Shown: positions 25,446 to 39,649 of the stretch, in pieces
Numbering within the stretch: position 1 is the first letter of the stretch
How the letters are laid out: every line of letters starts with the position of its first letter
NCBI GenBank assembly: GCA_913061515.1
Contig: CAJXSF010000002.1
Location: 62,001 to 126,000 of the forward strand
Direction of reading: 5' to 3'
Length of the DNA stretch: 64,000 bases
Source: an uncultured Gammaproteobacteria bacterium
Lineage (GTDB): Bacteria; Pseudomonadota; Gammaproteobacteria; Pseudomonadales; Pseudohongiellaceae
Translations under genes and position numbers: made by a program
Notes under the pieces: generated by a model
What the model was told of the DNA's origin: nothing
Seen by the model: only the letters and a program-made list of their open reading frames with translations
Database searches by the model: none

Positions 25446-25462
25446 GCTCTTCTTAGAATGAC

Positions 25463-25500
25463 AAAAGGGGAAAAAAGCTCCCAGCTTCCTTCCCCTTTTT
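25463..25500. terminator. Bidirectional intrinsic terminator
   Basis: AAAAGGGGAA (25463-25472) pairs with TTCCCCTTTT (25490-25499). An inner stem AAGCT/AGCTT closes a CCC loop after a two-by-two mismatch. The A-rich left arm and T-rich right arm give a U tract in both directions, which suits the convergent FAH and redoxin/cytochrome genes on either side. Confidence 0.85.
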
Positions 25501-25535
25501 AGGATTCCGTCCCCCCCTATCTCCTTACTTTTCGC

Positions 25536-27293
25536 TCATTGCGCACTCGCACTTGCGAACACACTCTGATCTACATACTTCCAATAGACTTGTCCGAAGA
25601 ACATTTCATCCCAGCTTTGATCGCCCCAAGGCACCGTTCTTGCTGGGTCGGGGTTTGACTTGTTCTGAGTTGAATTATCATAAGCGCCTGTGGCCACTAC
25701 CTTGGTACCGGCGGGCACAAATACTGGCTCTTCTAGCTTGTACTCGATCTGCCAGTTGTAGTTATAGTTAGCGATATTGATCAGCTCTTGTATCGTGCCA
25801 TCAGGGTGATGGGCAGCGAAACTCATGCTTTTACCGCGGAAATGCATATGCGGAATGAAGCTAGTTAGATAGGCGTCTGCATCGATAGTAATCGCTTGCT
25901 GCTGCACAAAATCAGGGTCATATGCTGGGATGTCGGTCCATGTTTGCGGGAAAATACAGGCGCATTCACTCGAACGACGCTCCTGGGGAATCTCGTCATC
26001 TGGGTAGAACCAGATACCGATCTCACTCGCATCCACGGTCTCTTTACCCATCGTCGTGTAATGCAGCTGCAGAGCGAGCTTCGAGCCAGCTTTGAGCAAC
26101 CCTCCAGTGTTCGGGGGCTCTACGTGTGGCTCAGCACCCGGAATATAAGGGGTGATGTAGGCAAGATTAGGATCCACTTCACCTAAGAAACCGCGCGGAC
26201 GCGTTTCACCGGGCTGCATCACCGCATTGAGGGTGTGATGCAGGACTGTGCGATCCCCCGCCAAATACTGACTGGCTCGCACCCACCGATCGCGCTCTAA
26301 GCCTTCGAATGGCACTACCACGGTGATGTAGTCGAGTACACCAGTAGCCGGAATCGTTTGCGGCGGCACTTTTACGATTAAGTCTGGCTCGCCAAACTCC
26401 CATTTGGACTCAGGCCATGTCAGTTGCGCCAGCGGGTCAACAGTTCCATCGATAGGCGAACCTGCCTCTATCCAATGCACAAGTTTTTGCTGATCTTCTA
26501 CCGCCACATTGTAATCGTTAGAGAAGGCCCCCACATGAGGGTCCAACTGACCTGGCGGCATACGCTTGGTCATCAATACTTCGCGGATCATCGGCGACCA
26601 CCCTTGCAACATGGCATGGCTATCCATCGCAAAAGGCGCGATTCCACCATCTCGGTGACAGCTGGCACAATTCTCGGCAATGATTGGTGCAATGTCTTTG
26701 CTGTAGGAGATCCCCTGGGACATATGCTGGGCAGTATTCGGGTAGGTTACATCAGAGCCACTCATCGCAACTACCGGAGTGCTAATCGATTGCCCGGCGT
26801 CTATTTCACTAACGGCCTGCTCTAGGCCTGCAACAGTGCCTCGATAGATCACCTCGAAACTACGCGGATCAAACAAAAAGGCTTCACCGCTTTTGTCGAC
26901 TCCCATGGCCTCAGAGACAATTTGGCTATCGTCAATTAAGACCGGCAGGGTAACACCTAAACGCTGCGCTTCTTGCTGAACGGTATCGCGTGCTTGGCCA
27001 AGAGGATTGAGAAACATGAACTCAAAGCCTTGCGTATCATATTGCGCTTGCAGACGCTGAAAGTCAGTGACCGCCGCACGAGTTTGGGCGCTACCATTGA
27101 CCTGGACTAAGAAAGCAATGGCCTTGTGGTCATCGTACCAAGCCATGTGATGAAACTTGCCATTGTGGTCAAGTAGTGAGAAATCCCCTACACGTTCGGC
27201 CGCATAAAGTGCTCCCGTGGCGAGCGCACAAACGGTTGCAACAGCAGCTATAACAAGCCGTTGTCTTGTTCTATTTATTTTAGCTTTAAGCAT
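25536..27293 (-). CDS. Exported redoxin - cytochrome c - copper-monooxygenase-like protein (paralogue A)
   Basis: The protein has 585 residues from ATG 27293 (GGAGGTG just upstream; the track's TTG at 27305 would read through that site). Residue numbers here are track numbers minus 4. Order: signal peptide to about 32; thioredoxin-like domain about 36-165 without any cysteine at the redox site ('FLVQVNGSAQT'); heme c motif CASCH (209-213) with distal Met in 'KRMPPGQ'; then a domain resembling the PHM/dopamine-beta-hydroxylase copper type II fold, about 300-575. Candidate copper ligands are His352-His353 ('VLHHTLN'), His411 ('LQLHYTT'), His482/His484 ('PHMHFRG') and Met564 ('WDEMFFG'). It probably performs periplasmic oxidation fed by its own heme; the substrate is unknown. 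A TetR gene lies upstream on the same strand. A diverged copy is at 32.2 kb. Confidence 0.82.
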   Translation of the reverse strand: MLKAKINRTRQRLVIAAVATVCALATGALYAAERVGDFSLLDHNGKFHHMAWYDDHKAIAFLVQVNGSAQTRAAVTDFQRLQAQYDTQGFEFMFLNPLGQARDTVQQEAQRLGVTLPVLIDDSQIVSEAMGVDKSGEAFLFDPRSFEVIYRGTVAGLEQAVSEIDAGQSISTPVVAMSGSDVTYPNTAQHMSQGISYSKDIAPIIAENCASCHRDGGIAPFAMDSHAMLQGWSPMIREVLMTKRMPPGQLDPHVGAFSNDYNVAVEDQQKLVHWIEAGSPIDGTVDPLAQLTWPESKWEFGEPDLIVKVPPQTIPATGVLDYITVVVPFEGLERDRWVRASQYLAGDRTVLHHTLNAVMQPGETRPRGFLGEVDPNLAYITPYIPGAEPHVEPPNTGGLLKAGSKLALQLHYTTMGKETVDASEIGIWFYPDDEIPQERRSSECACIFPQTWTDIPAYDPDFVQQQAITIDADAYLTSFIPHMHFRGKSMSFAAHHPDGTIQELINIANYNYNWQIEYKLEEPVFVPAGTKVVATGAYDNSTQNKSNPDPARTVPWGDQSWDEMFFGQVYWKYVDQSVFASASAQ

Positions 27294-27423
27294 GCCCACC
27301 TCCAATCAAACGACTATTCGGTCAATTATCCTAGCACCCGCAATTGGCAAAGCAAACGACATCGGGTCAGTGAAGGCATTTATTCATTCTCACTTTCTCG
27401 AATTCAGGAATCAGCAAGGCATT

Positions 27424-28095
27424 TCAAGAGTTATTTTGCGCAAAAGAGTCGGAAAGCAACATATCTAGGGCATGACGCAGATTTTTCTGAAACTCTACTT
27501 CACTAAAGAAGTCACACAAAAAACCTTGCAGAAGATGATAAAACAGGCCAAAGATACTGGTGACCGCGGTCCCAATATAGAGATTAGGCGATACTTTCCC
27601 TTGCTTAATACCGCGTTTTAACAATTGCGCTAATTTGTCATAAGCCGCATTGAAGATTATCTCGATATCATGGCGACGTTGCGGGTTTACTGGGAACGAC
27701 AGCTCCTTCAATACAGTCCTAGACAACACCCGATCTTCTTTGTGGTAGTCGATATGCACTTGGAAAAAGCACATCAACTGATCGGTAACAGCGGTCTCCG
27801 GATTAGTGTCATCGAAGGCCGCTTCTGTCATCTGTAATAAAGTCTCACGAAACACTAACACTAAAAGATCTTCTTTGCCTTTAGCGTATAGATAGAGCGT
27901 ACCTAAGCCGATCCCCGCCTCTTCTGCGATATCTTGGATCGTCGTATTTTGAAAGCCTTTGCTGATAAACAGCTGGCGAGAAACACTGATTATGCGCTGA
28001 AGCCGAAGACGCTTTTTACGCTCTCGCAGCCCCGGTTTCGCCAACATTGTCTCTTCCGTTGGGGATTGCGCCTCTGTAACGCCTTGTTGATCCAT
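27424..28095 (-). CDS. TetR/AcrR-family transcriptional regulator
   Basis: A 223-residue protein. After a variable N-terminus, the DNA-binding helix-turn-helix runs from about 30 to 80, with 'LFISKGFQNTTIQDIAEEAG' and 'GTLYLYAKGKEDLL', the standard TetR signature. The remaining alpha-helical half (about 85-223) is the ligand-binding and dimerisation domain, with no recognisable ligand class. It lies 130 bases upstream of the redoxin/cytochrome/copper gene on the same strand and is divergent from the glutaredoxin gene. Either could be its target; I saw no clear palindromic operator. Confidence 0.88.
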   Translation of the reverse strand: MDQQGVTEAQSPTEETMLAKPGLRERKKRLRLQRIISVSRQLFISKGFQNTTIQDIAEEAGIGLGTLYLYAKGKEDLLVLVFRETLLQMTEAAFDDTNPETAVTDQLMCFFQVHIDYHKEDRVLSRTVLKELSFPVNPQRRHDIEIIFNAAYDKLAQLLKRGIKQGKVSPNLYIGTAVTSIFGLFYHLLQGFLCDFFSEVEFQKNLRHALDMLLSDSFAQNNS

Positions 28096-32159: not shown

Positions 32160-33911
32160 CTACTGCTGCACAGGTTTCAAAACACGAATGTAATGGCTAA
32201 ATATTTCGTCGTAGGTTGTAATCCCTACCTTAACGTCGGCCTCTGGGTCGACGTTCTGCGGATTCGAAGCAGAGTTGTCATACACAGTTTCCGAAATCAG
32301 TCGTGACCCCGCAGGCAGGAGCAATCTTTCACGCATTTTGTAGTTCATCTGCCAATTAAAATTGTAGTTCGCGACATTGATCAGCCGCTGCACAGTTCCG
32401 TCAGGAAATTGCGCAGAGATAGTCATACTCTTGCCCCGAGTGTGCGTTTGCGGCGCAAAACTCTCAACCCACACATCGTTCTCAAACACTGGCGTCTGTG
32501 CATGCTCAACCTGATTCACCACGCCCGCAGGAATTGAGAACTGCGAGTTCAGCGCAATCACATTGTGCACTTCATACTCTGGAGCGGTGTCGCGGAAATA
32601 CAGCCCTATTCGGGTAGCATCGATAGTGTCTCTACCGCCCGTGACATAGCGTATTTTGAACGATAGATCGCGGTCCTGGCGCAGCAAAAATGCAGAGTCA
32701 TCTGCGAACTTTTCTTCCGTGCTAGGAGGCACATAAAGACTAATGAACTCAGTGTTCTCGGGACTTACCAAACCGGCTTCATCTTTCTCGACAATATTAG
32801 GATCAACCGCAAACACTAACAAACTGTGCAATACGGATCGGTCGCCCACATTATACGCAACAGCCTGCACCCATTGATCTTGCGTCAGGTTCAAGTCCGC
32901 GCGCCGAATTTTAAAGTCGACCATACCAGTGGCTGGCACCTCTATCGCTGGCACATCAACAATCAGGTCTGGTTCGCCTAGCGCCCACTGCTCACTGAGC
33001 TCTTCCTGTTCTCTAAGTGGATCCCCTTCCCCGGCATTGCGTGCACCACTATCGATCCAATGAACCAGTGTAATCAATTCCTCATCGGTGATGTGGTGAA
33101 TATCCTCCCACGCCCCTTCCTGCTCATCGATTTGCCCTGGAGGCATTCGGTGAGTAATCAATACTTCACGAATCATGGGGCTCCAGCCTTGAATCATTCG
33201 GTGGCTGACCATCGCCCAAGGGGCCAAACCATCCTCGATGTGACATGTCGTGCAGCGACGTTTGAGGATCGGTGCAATTTCATCTTCATAGGAAATTTGT
33301 CGATCCCCAAAGCGTTCCTGATAAAGGTAGGCAATAGGGGCCCCCTCGACGGCTGGTAACTCTTCTTCGGGCAAATCGTCACCTTCAAGTAATGCGATCA
33401 GAGCTTGTTCAAGATAAGGAGTCTCGGGGGGCGTTGCAGGCACCGCAATGCCACTAGCCAAAGGGCCTCGATAAAGAACATCGTGAGACTCAGGGTCTAG
33501 AATGAAGGCTTCATCGGTAGTAGTAACTTGCAAAGATCGTGCGACCAATTGAGCGCTATCTTGCAATACGGGCAAATCGACACCGATTCTGGCCAATTCA
33601 TCGATTATTTGCTGGCGGCTCTGTCCAGGGATAGGGTTTAGCATTAAGACCTCCACACCCTGTTCACTGTAGCGGGTGTGGAGATCCTGTAGGAGGGGGA
33701 TGGCTTGTTGCGATGCAGGCTCGCCATTGGCTTGCACAAACAACACAACGAACTCAGATTCACCATAGCGACTTAACTGATGAAAGGTGCCGTGTTGATC
33801 CAACAATGCGAAATCGGTACTTCTCTGCGCCATTGCTGACACAGAGACTAATGTGGCAAAAAACAAGCCTAAATACTTTAGGCAATTGATCATATTTATT
33901 CGAATTCTCAT
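32160..33911 (-). CDS. Exported redoxin - cytochrome c - copper-monooxygenase-like protein (paralogue B, copper ligands lost)
   Basis: Same layout as paralogue A at 25.5 kb: signal peptide ending 'SAMAQ', cysteine-free thioredoxin-like domain ('VLFVQANGEPAS'), heme c motif CTTCH with distal Met 'HRMPPGQ', then a copper type II monooxygenase-like domain. Aligned by eye, most copper ligands are missing. HH of A is 'LHSLL' (His-Ser), LHY is 'KIRY' (His to Arg), HMH is 'QTH' (first His to Gln), and the Met in 'WDEMFF' is Ile in 'YDEIFS'. The heme is kept, so it may be an electron-transfer or binding partner, not a monooxygenase. The start is uncertain: ATG 33911 fits a signal peptide; 33956 (track) and 33893 remain possible, and none has a strong Shine-Dalgarno. 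Confidence 0.8.
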   Translation of the reverse strand: MRIRINMINCLKYLGLFFATLVSVSAMAQRSTDFALLDQHGTFHQLSRYGESEFVVLFVQANGEPASQQAIPLLQDLHTRYSEQGVEVLMLNPIPGQSRQQIIDELARIGVDLPVLQDSAQLVARSLQVTTTDEAFILDPESHDVLYRGPLASGIAVPATPPETPYLEQALIALLEGDDLPEEELPAVEGAPIAYLYQERFGDRQISYEDEIAPILKRRCTTCHIEDGLAPWAMVSHRMIQGWSPMIREVLITHRMPPGQIDEQEGAWEDIHHITDEELITLVHWIDSGARNAGEGDPLREQEELSEQWALGEPDLIVDVPAIEVPATGMVDFKIRRADLNLTQDQWVQAVAYNVGDRSVLHSLLVFAVDPNIVEKDEAGLVSPENTEFISLYVPPSTEEKFADDSAFLLRQDRDLSFKIRYVTGGRDTIDATRIGLYFRDTAPEYEVHNVIALNSQFSIPAGVVNQVEHAQTPVFENDVWVESFAPQTHTRGKSMTISAQFPDGTVQRLINVANYNFNWQMNYKMRERLLLPAGSRLISETVYDNSASNPQNVDPEADVKVGITTYDEIFSHYIRVLKPVQQ

Positions 33912-34040
33912 AGACTGCACTTGCTCATTTACGACATTGATCTCGCATTTAAACATAGTGCTGCCTACTCGGCTCCCTCGATTCTCACTAATTGCTGACG
34001 AATTTTGAAAGCAGTATGCGAAATCTAAAAAACCTCGTAA

Positions 34041-37261: not shown

Positions 37262-39649
37262 ATGACGTCTATAAATTCCATTCATTCGCTGCACTCTAAA
37301 CTGTCAATTTCCAGATATCGTCACCTACCGCGATATTGTAGCGCATTATTACTGTCCACTTTTTTCTATATTCCCTGTTCGATTGCGCAAGATGTCTTCT
37401 CTGAGCCACTTTTTGGAGAGCAAAGCCTTAACGGTGGCTTCGCCCCCGACCCTGCTCGCATCGATATCGTTGCGGGAGGCTCGACTGATGCCGCCAGCAC
37501 TGAGTCAAGTTGTACAGGCTATATTGCGGTCGAGCAGCCCGACTATAGGATACATTACACGCCTGATACCTATGCGCTAGGAATCCTCGTAGCCAGCGAT
37601 GTCGATACAACACTTATCGTCAATACGCCCGATGGGAGCTGGGAGTGCAATGATGACTTCTCGGGGCTTGAGAACAACAATTCTGGAGTCTTATTCAACA
37701 CGCCACTGACAGGGCAGTATGATATTTGGGTGGGGACCTATAGTGCCGCAGATGCAGGTGCACAAGCACAACTGATCATTACCGAGCTGCCTCAGAGCGA
37801 ATGGCTCAGCCTCTCAAATGAATATCACGATAGCAATGACAGCGTTGCTGTGGCCAGTTCAATCCTTATAGAGGGCAGTGAACAACAGGGCAGCCTGGAC
37901 CCAATGGACAGCACACTCAGTAATTATGGGTATTCAGACACTTACACCTTTACTGGCCAAACAGGTCAAAACGCGATTATCGATTTAAGTTCTGATGAAT
38001 TTGATACTTATCTAGTATTGCGCACTCCCAGCGGTGAAGAGCTTAGCAATGATGACTTCGAAGGCAGCACGGCACGCTCCCTACTCTCTGTGCCATTAAC
38101 TGAGTCTGGGGAATTTGAAATCGTCGTGTCGAGCTTCATGAGTGGCGAGACAGGCCCGTACACGCTTTCTTTAGCGCTTGATGAAAATAATAGCATTGCG
38201 GCGGCAAGGGTCGAATCGGGCGAGTTGTCGTCGTCGGATGAGCAATTAGCAAGCGGTGAGTATATCGATCTCTATTCATTCGATGGACGCCCCGGTCAGC
38301 GCCTCCAGGCTGACTTGCGCTCAGAAGACTTTGATACTTATTTAATCCTCATCGCTCCCTCTGGAGAGCAATTTGAAAACGATGATATGGATTCGATCAA
38401 CCGTAGCTTTCTTGATATGACTTTATCTGAATCTGGCAGTTACCAATTGATAGTGACATCGTTTAGTGAAGGCTCTACCGGTGAGTACTCGCTACAAATT
38501 GATCATGGCGCAGCGAACGACAATCCAAGTCGAGAGTCTAATATCCGCAGTCTCGCCATCGGTCAATCCATAGAAGGACTGCTTAGCGAAGAAACGAGCT
38601 CACGAGTAGACAACAAATTAGAAGATACTTATTGGTTTGCTGGACAAGCCGATGAGACTGTACGCATAGATCTCAATTCAGATGACTTCGACACCTTTCT
38701 ACGATTAGTGACCCCTAGCGGTGAACTTATAGAAAACGATGACTTCGAAGGCAGCCTACATACTTCTTCTATTTCTTTAACATTGCGCGAGGCGGGTCGC
38801 TATCGAGTGGTAGTCACCAGTTACGACGCCGGAGACACAGGGCAATATGAAATAGACCTGCAATCACAAGCTATGCCAATCGTCTCTGCAAGCAACAGCG
38901 GTGGGCAAGTCTATGGAATATTTGCCGGTATTAGTGATTACCCAGGCAGTGCGCAAGATCTAAGTTACACAGATCAAGATGCCATAAGAGCGAGAGACGC
39001 GCTCATCAATGGCGCCGGAATGCAAGAAAACAACGGCATACTTTTGCTCAATAGCGACGCCACACTGGACAATTTTCGTGCAGCGATTGAACAAGTCGCT
39101 GCACGAGCTACAGAACAGGACACGGTCGTGCTGTTCTACTCGGGGCATGGCAACCGCGTCGAACGAGCAGGAGGCCCAAATAGCGCAGACCCTGATGGTT
39201 TAGATGAAACAATTGAGCTCTACGATGGCGCGATGCTCGATGATGAGCTAGCTTTTTTGTTCGACACTGTGCAGGCCGGTACCACATTGCTTGTACTGGA
39301 CTCTTGCTTTAGTGGCGGGTTTGCGAAAGATTTAGTGTCGCGCCCCGGCAGAATGGGGCTTTTCTCCTCTGAAGAAGACGTGACCTCACAAGTTGCTGCG
39401 AAATTTCGAGCTGGAGGCTACCTCTCTGTTTTCTTTGAAGAAGCACTTGGAGGGTATGCAGATTTTGATGACAATGGCGAGCTCACAGCCATAGAATTAA
39501 GCGAATACTTGCACGATCGATTTCGCAATGACGTAAAATCAAGTAGCGTGGATCAGTTTGTTCGTACCAGCGGCCCTCAATCTGGCTATCAACACCTTGT
39601 TGTTGATCGAGGAGGAGTTGGTCCCTACAGCATTTTGTTTAACCATTAA
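37262..39649 (+). CDS. Exported caspase-like (C14) protease with PPC repeats and an EF-hand loop
   Basis: A 795-residue protein. An N-terminal signal (about 22-42, ending 'SIAQ') exports it. Residues about 95-535 hold four PPC-type beta-sandwich repeats with a recurring 'DFDTYLVL..PSGE...NDDFEGS' motif. The caspase domain spans about 548-720. Its catalytic dyad is His629 in 'FYSGHGN' and Cys682 in 'VLDSCFSGGF'. A canonical EF-hand loop 'DFDDNGELTAIE' (734-745) follows, suggesting calcium dependence as in metacaspases. Such orthocaspases cleave after Arg or Lys, and their natural substrates are largely unknown. Its stop overlaps the next gene (PAS-GAF-GGDEF) as TAATG. The start is ATG without a strong Shine-Dalgarno. 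Confidence 0.88.
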   Translation: MTSINSIHSLHSKLSISRYRHLPRYCSALLLSTFFYIPCSIAQDVFSEPLFGEQSLNGGFAPDPARIDIVAGGSTDAASTESSCTGYIAVEQPDYRIHYTPDTYALGILVASDVDTTLIVNTPDGSWECNDDFSGLENNNSGVLFNTPLTGQYDIWVGTYSAADAGAQAQLIITELPQSEWLSLSNEYHDSNDSVAVASSILIEGSEQQGSLDPMDSTLSNYGYSDTYTFTGQTGQNAIIDLSSDEFDTYLVLRTPSGEELSNDDFEGSTARSLLSVPLTESGEFEIVVSSFMSGETGPYTLSLALDENNSIAAARVESGELSSSDEQLASGEYIDLYSFDGRPGQRLQADLRSEDFDTYLILIAPSGEQFENDDMDSINRSFLDMTLSESGSYQLIVTSFSEGSTGEYSLQIDHGAANDNPSRESNIRSLAIGQSIEGLLSEETSSRVDNKLEDTYWFAGQADETVRIDLNSDDFDTFLRLVTPSGELIENDDFEGSLHTSSISLTLREAGRYRVVVTSYDAGDTGQYEIDLQSQAMPIVSASNSGGQVYGIFAGISDYPGSAQDLSYTDQDAIRARDALINGAGMQENNGILLLNSDATLDNFRAAIEQVAARATEQDTVVLFYSGHGNRVERAGGPNSADPDGLDETIELYDGAMLDDELAFLFDTVQAGTTLLVLDSCFSGGFAKDLVSRPGRMGLFSSEEDVTSQVAAKFRAGGYLSVFFEEALGGYADFDDNGELTAIELSEYLHDRFRNDVKSSSVDQFVRTSGPQSGYQHLVVDRGGVGPYSILFNH

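Follow-up and report, generated by a model that had tools for sequence, protein, structure and literature searches.

An expanded family of exported redoxin-heme c-PHM-type copper proteins in the Pseudohongiellaceae, probable heme-fed monooxygenases

In the window, as we term the whole 64,000-nucleotide stretch of DNA analyzed here (from a contig of an uncultured member of the Pseudohongiellaceae), a minus-strand gene codes for an exported protein that unites a redoxin domain, a heme c domain and a C-terminal copper region of about 285 residues. A paralogous gene of the same three-domain organization lies about 5 kb away. The features of the locus are as follows:

25536-27305, minus strand: open reading frame of the redoxin / heme c / PHM-type gene, 589 codons from a TTG, the basis of the residue numbering
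25536..27293, minus strand: the exported protein, with redoxin, heme c and PHM-type copper domains; 585 aa when started at an ATG
27201..27293, minus strand: Sec-type signal peptide (MLKAK...ALYA), read by eye from the sequence
26751..27197, minus strand: redoxin (thioredoxin-fold) domain without an active-site cysteine, from PF00578, a profile match to 3u5r and a structural match
27093..27107, minus strand: VQVNG, in place of the NCPxV-type motif of related redoxins, from alignments
26655..26669, minus strand: CASCH covalent heme c site (C213, C216, H217), from the sequence and its conservation
26559..26561, minus strand: Met249 of RMPP, presumed distal heme ligand, from conservation
25539..26393, minus strand: PHM/DBH-type copper monooxygenase region with both subdomains, from PF03712, Foldseek and a bridge protein (L160)
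26235..26240, minus strand: His356-His357, CuH-type (rat PHM H107, H108), from alignments
26061..26063, minus strand: His415, CuH-type (rat H172), from alignments
25842..25850, minus strand: His486-Met-His488, CuM-type (rat H242, H244), from alignments
25602..25604, minus strand: Met568, CuM-type (rat M314), from alignments
27424..28095, minus strand: TetR-family regulator upstream of the copper-domain gene, from PF00440 (E=8.5e-14) and synteny
32160-33956, minus strand: paralogue with the three domains of the above gene, retaining the heme but neither copper site (H-S / R / Q-x-H / I), from the open reading frame and alignment

The ATG at 27293, with a Shine-Dalgarno GGAGG just 5′ of it, is the likeliest start of the copper-domain gene and coincides with the end coordinate given by an earlier reading made from the letters alone (hereafter the sequence-only reading); the signal peptide which that reading had noticed is, by eye, MLKAKINRTRQRLVIAAVATVCALATGALYA. 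Downstream, at 25446-25535, an inverted repeat with runs of A and T separates the converging FAA-hydrolase and copper-oxygenase genes and, judged by eye, is probably a two-way terminator. The TetR regulator precedes the gene in the same orientation at a distance of about 120 bp, an arrangement of the window that recurs at 8 syntenic orthologous loci. We considered it as a sign of substrate control and set it aside: synteny extends over the whole block, which leaves the pair hardly more conserved than its neighbors. The genes near the window copy offer no clue to the substrate, an NCBIfam scan of the protein gave no family above the cut-off, a plasmid search gave no match, and comparison with a viral fold library gave no meaningful one.

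The copper domain is a true homolog of PHM and dopamine beta-hydroxylase (DBH), copper enzymes of the kind by which animals produce peptide hormones and noradrenaline, and it carries both trios of copper ligands. A profile search with Pfam matched PF03712 (Cu2_monoox_C) directly, at E=6e-4 and slightly below the gathering cut-off; a profile search with the copper type II monooxygenase domains was among the checks that the sequence-only reading had proposed. When the window protein was compared directly with the PDB, by phmmer and by profile, the searches returned redoxins, a few marginal others and no PHM, and the homology was established by structure and a bridge sequence rather than by direct PDB sequence search. 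The AlphaFold2 model, built from an input of 66 family members, has a mean pLDDT of 93.5 and a pTM of 0.90. A Foldseek search with it across 350,542 PDB chains ranked rat PHM at the top (E=7e-11, prob 1.00), with human DBH (PDB 4zel; E=4e-10) also among the best, the top matches spanning about 300 columns and both copper subdomains; the structure prediction called for by the sequence-only reading thus gave PHM and DBH as the best solved matches. The TM-score normalized to PHM is 0.5-0.6, at an rmsd of 5-10 angstroms, so that the relative placement of the two copper subdomains may differ from that of PHM.

The bridge, encoded on the minus strand at L160:1483-2745 in the genome of a different proteobacterium (G416), is a heme c-PHM protein that scores above threshold with both copper-domain models of Pfam (PF01082/PF03712). 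The window core matches it by BLASTP at E=1e-21 over 383 aa covering both the heme and the copper parts; its own match to rat PHM, at E=3e-7, brings all six ligands into register, and the ligands match up at both steps. Like the window protein it combines heme c, a PHM domain and all ligands, whereas it lacks the redoxin, was found as a single copy in its genome and scores much better against Pfam. In the single comparison of the family profile with rat PHM (22% identity, 236 columns, E=0.016), H415, H486, H488 and M568 fall exactly on H172, H242, H244 and M314, with the His-His pair off by one residue; the identities of the rat ligands are backed by the titles of mutant structures among the PDB matches. 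The PHM domain of PAM (1opm, 3mll) shares with the window protein the fold, the order of the six ligands, their near-equal spacing (58, 71 and 80 residues for H357-H415, H415-H486 and H488-M568, against 64, 70 and 70 in rat PHM) and the Gln of the LQxH motif before H415, the equivalent of rat Q170. It differs from the window protein in that the latter has a fused heme c and redoxin, few cysteines, a bacterial periplasmic setting and a lineage-specific expansion. DBH, for its part, bears an N-terminal DOMON domain and has its ascorbate supplied through cytochrome b561; the window protein shares its copper core and carries a fused heme c instead.

The order His-His, His, His-x-His and Met, which the sequence-only reading had picked out as that of the PHM/DBH copper sites, is borne by the window protein as a CuH trio (H356, H357, H415) and a CuM trio (H486, H488, M568), and all six ligands recur in 95 of the 98 true relatives of the first survey (99 rows, one false member excluded), for which the ligands were no selection criterion. 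Two further searches, aimed at ligand-deviant copies, uncovered two conserved sister lineages with copper-ligand losses and the heme kept throughout. In the lineage of the second window copy (the paralogue at 32160-33956), the CuH trio is H-S-R, once H-S-K, in every member across several genera. CuM is intact in the outer genera and is also decayed (Q-x-H; I, V or T) only in the window's own genus; accordingly, orthologs of the paralogue from that genus share its double loss and those from other genera lack CuH alone. In the other lineage, typified by the copy L004, the CuM His-x-His was altered first, to Arg/Lys-x-Asn/Ser, and some members later lost Met568 or the CuH histidines too. A tree of 156 sequences, calculated without the ligand columns by a quick search under a simple model and with SH-aLRT support only, places at least two losses of the CuH trio and at least two of the CuM trio, in opposite order in the two lineages. 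Separate losses in opposite orders are as expected of two separate functional sites; by this evolutionary test the comparison of sequences suggests that the six ligands form two such sites.

The redoxin domain matches PF00578 (AhpC-TSA) at E=2.4e-5, slightly under the gathering score, and profile matches tie it to the AhpC/TSA-type redoxin SMc02350 (PDB 3u5r, E=7e-13), which with 2ywi is its nearest solved relative, and also to ResA. It shares the thioredoxin fold of SMc02350 and ResA, but it is fused to other domains and has neither the active-site Cys nor the CxxC of thiol-disulfide redoxins: VQVNG indeed occupies the peroxidatic/CxxC segment, as the sequence-only reading had it. Its further claim that the domain had lost its redox function holds across the family, in that disulfide-exchange chemistry is gone: CxxC occurs in 0 of 150 redoxin domains, 50 of which have one Cys and 100 none; the ancestral domain, though, may have carried a single cysteine and no CxxC. 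The single heme site with a distal Met, also noticed there, is constant: CASCH (213-217) and Met249, the CxxCH and axial Met of a monoheme cytochrome c, are kept in 156 of 156 aligned relatives, a count for which CxxCH was required at collection and Met249 for part of the sequences (not the later sets). PF13442 matches this domain weakly (E=0.07), and the genome carries cytochrome c assembly genes.

Heme c is fused to the copper domain throughout a large, lineage-expanded family. The genome of the window holds 12 family loci, plus one lone redoxin, which make up 11 gene units: six fused redoxin-heme-PHM genes, four heme-PHM genes without the redoxin and one split unit (L007/L008; G000:C17:10478-12338), in which a PHM gene is followed by a redoxin-heme gene, each with its own signal peptide, and which nests within the clade of fused proteins. 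One copy (L006) has an EF-hand-like tail, and the genome G577 also has the fused form with EF-hands. In the Pseudohongiellaceae, full-length copies are present in 38 of 59 genomes, commonly 4-10 in each, with whole genera lacking any; related loci number roughly 10-20 per genome in this little-studied lineage. Outside it the family is rare: within the class, 4 of 274 genomes gave full-length matches; within the phylum, PF03712 exceeded its cut-off in 2 of 249 genomes, compared with 0 of 14 control genomes; and heme-PHM proteins were found in 3 of 349 genomes. Our literature searches found no study of a redoxin-heme c-PHM fusion; presumably such fusions already sit in domain databases as unannotated proteins.

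The analysis establishes the domains, the PHM homology, the ligand set, the modular conservation of the copper sites, the constancy of the heme, the export signal and the conserved neighbors; copper occupancy, electron transfer from heme to copper, oxygenase activity and the type of substrate are inferred. We propose that the window protein is probably a PHM/DBH-superfamily copper monooxygenase that is secreted and that draws its electrons from heme c instead of ascorbate. The His/Met heme c domain, fused ahead of the copper domain, would take electrons from a periplasmic donor and hand them singly to the CuH site, the direction of flow being assumed; CuH would pass them on to CuM, where O2 would be activated and a C-H bond, probably one beside a heteroatom, hydroxylated. 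The redoxin domain would serve as a redox-dead docking or structural module. Given the fused heme c, which suggests a reductant other than ascorbate, free ascorbate would not be needed; nevertheless, the "self-contained" oxygenase of the sequence-only reading is overstated, because some periplasmic donor has to re-reduce the heme. There are good grounds for supposing that the heme feeds the copper: the long-standing fusion, the presence of heme in every copy and the precedent of a bacterial copper monooxygenase (LPMO) that receives electrons from a c-type cytochrome domain, which can replace ascorbate and lowers H2O2 leakage compared with it (PMC8981238). There, as in the proposed scheme, a c-type cytochrome domain (CjX183 of Cellvibrio Cbp2D) delivers electrons to a copper monooxygenase, but the LPMO is a mono-copper enzyme of an unrelated fold, and cytochrome and oxygenase are separate proteins, unlike the window fusion (PMC8981238).

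The sister lineages show that the family is not purely catalytic: since there are conserved paralogues that lack one copper site or both, the heme and PHM fold also serve a role without oxygenase chemistry. One might therefore ask if the window protein too is non-catalytic, with the PHM fold reused in the periplasm to carry electrons, hold copper or sense redox state. Besides the retention of heme c and fold in the two lineages devoid of CuH, CuM or both, this would fit the L004-like CuM-less copies, which keep CuH and in several genomes adjoin a full-site heme-PHM gene and its partner. We nonetheless consider it unlikely for the window gene, which, like most relatives, strictly keeps the six ligands in the two-site PHM pattern, and for which the His-x-His and Met of CuM would be superfluous in a carrier. 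It is still less probable that the electrons run the other way, with the copper domain oxidizing a periplasmic substrate as a dehydrogenase whose heme passes electrons to the respiratory chain, or that H2O2 is the oxidant of a peroxygenase in which the heme only primes the copper. His/Met heme c domains are often the electron acceptors of periplasmic dehydrogenases, and the direction of flow is not readable from sequence; yet the two sites are laid out as in an O2-reducing hydroxylase, and we know of no member of the PHM/DBH superfamily that is a dehydrogenase.

A genuine peptide-amidating enzyme, acting on glycine-extended peptides, has to be weighed on account of the neighbors of the paralogues. 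PAL is the second enzyme, or second half, of PAM, and the tandem full-site copies L002/L003 are adjoined by a PAL-like NHL propeller (L124:5797-6978), as well as by a HupE/UreJ_2 membrane protein (L124:7179-8600), a cluster repeated in L092 and L093. The propeller aligns with rat PAL (sequence confirmed against 3fvz) at E=8.8e-9, with other NHL propellers scoring equally well or better. It keeps residues at the Arg, His, Tyr, Arg and His positions of the PAL active site, with a sixth (His) one residue off. Such a propeller lies within 4 kb of full-site paralogues in 8 of the 8 family-bearing genomes compared, from three genera, and in this reading it would perform the second step of a bacterial two-gene PAM. 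However, I484, F570 and Q572 stand at the positions of rat R240, N316 and Y318, which hold the peptide carboxylate in PHM; with these equivalents absent, peptidylglycine is an unlikely substrate. Moreover, the window copy has no PAL-like neighbor, the association with propellers (like that with the exported partners below) belonging to the paralogues and not to the window gene itself, and genomes devoid of the full-length copper proteins also have propellers of this type, though more distant ones. Peptide amidation is thus, in our estimate, highly improbable, and the heme-fed monooxygenase on some other substrate remains the preferred reading.

Two families of exported proteins recur beside other copies. 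The members of the first, of about 310-340 aa, adjoin each of the four redoxin-less heme-PHM genes of the genome:

L125:12282-13217
L126:6527-7441
L128:7571-8584
L129:7775-8767

Members of this family adjoin a heme-PHM gene at 29 of its 30 best loci in the Pseudohongiellaceae and occur in the same genera as the copper proteins. They are modeled as Ig-like beta domains, for which the model gave no informative structural match. The second family, of about 375-440 aa, recurs near heme-PHM genes and had no Pfam match above the cut-off in the members scanned:

L125:7757-8884
L126:3796-4953
L126:7455-8786
L068:3553-4710

As a tentative extension, which we hold to be possible rather than probable, these bacteria might possess an entire set of PHM-type oxygenases wired to heme and served by dedicated accessory proteins: lyase-like propellers for a PAM-style two-step dealkylation, Ig-like exported partners and copper-less sister proteins as electron relays. 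Such a set would amount to a periplasmic counterpart of the P450 systems, with copper taking the place of heme for O2 and heme c that of ascorbate for electrons. In the sister group HTCC2089 many oxygenases have been reported, but these are P450s and not heme-PHM proteins (PMC8371827). If active, the heme-PHM proteins would point to an unrecognized oxidative capacity of a little-studied bacterial lineage.

The copper domain itself belongs to a known superfamily; the points of interest are the heme-wired form, its expansion and the natural single-site and no-site sisters. Among uncoupled two-copper hydroxylases, PHM and DBH are the textbook cases, and the route of electrons to CuH and across to CuM is an old question, usually approached with ascorbate that diffuses freely. 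In a natural enzyme whose copper domain is tethered to heme c, the heme would serve both as an optical probe and as a defined one-electron donor, and its CuH-less and CuM-less sister proteins would be ready-made single-site controls. As a separate observation, the window also codes, at 37262-39649 on the plus strand, for an exported protein that combines a PPC domain with a caspase (Peptidase_C14) domain at its C terminus.
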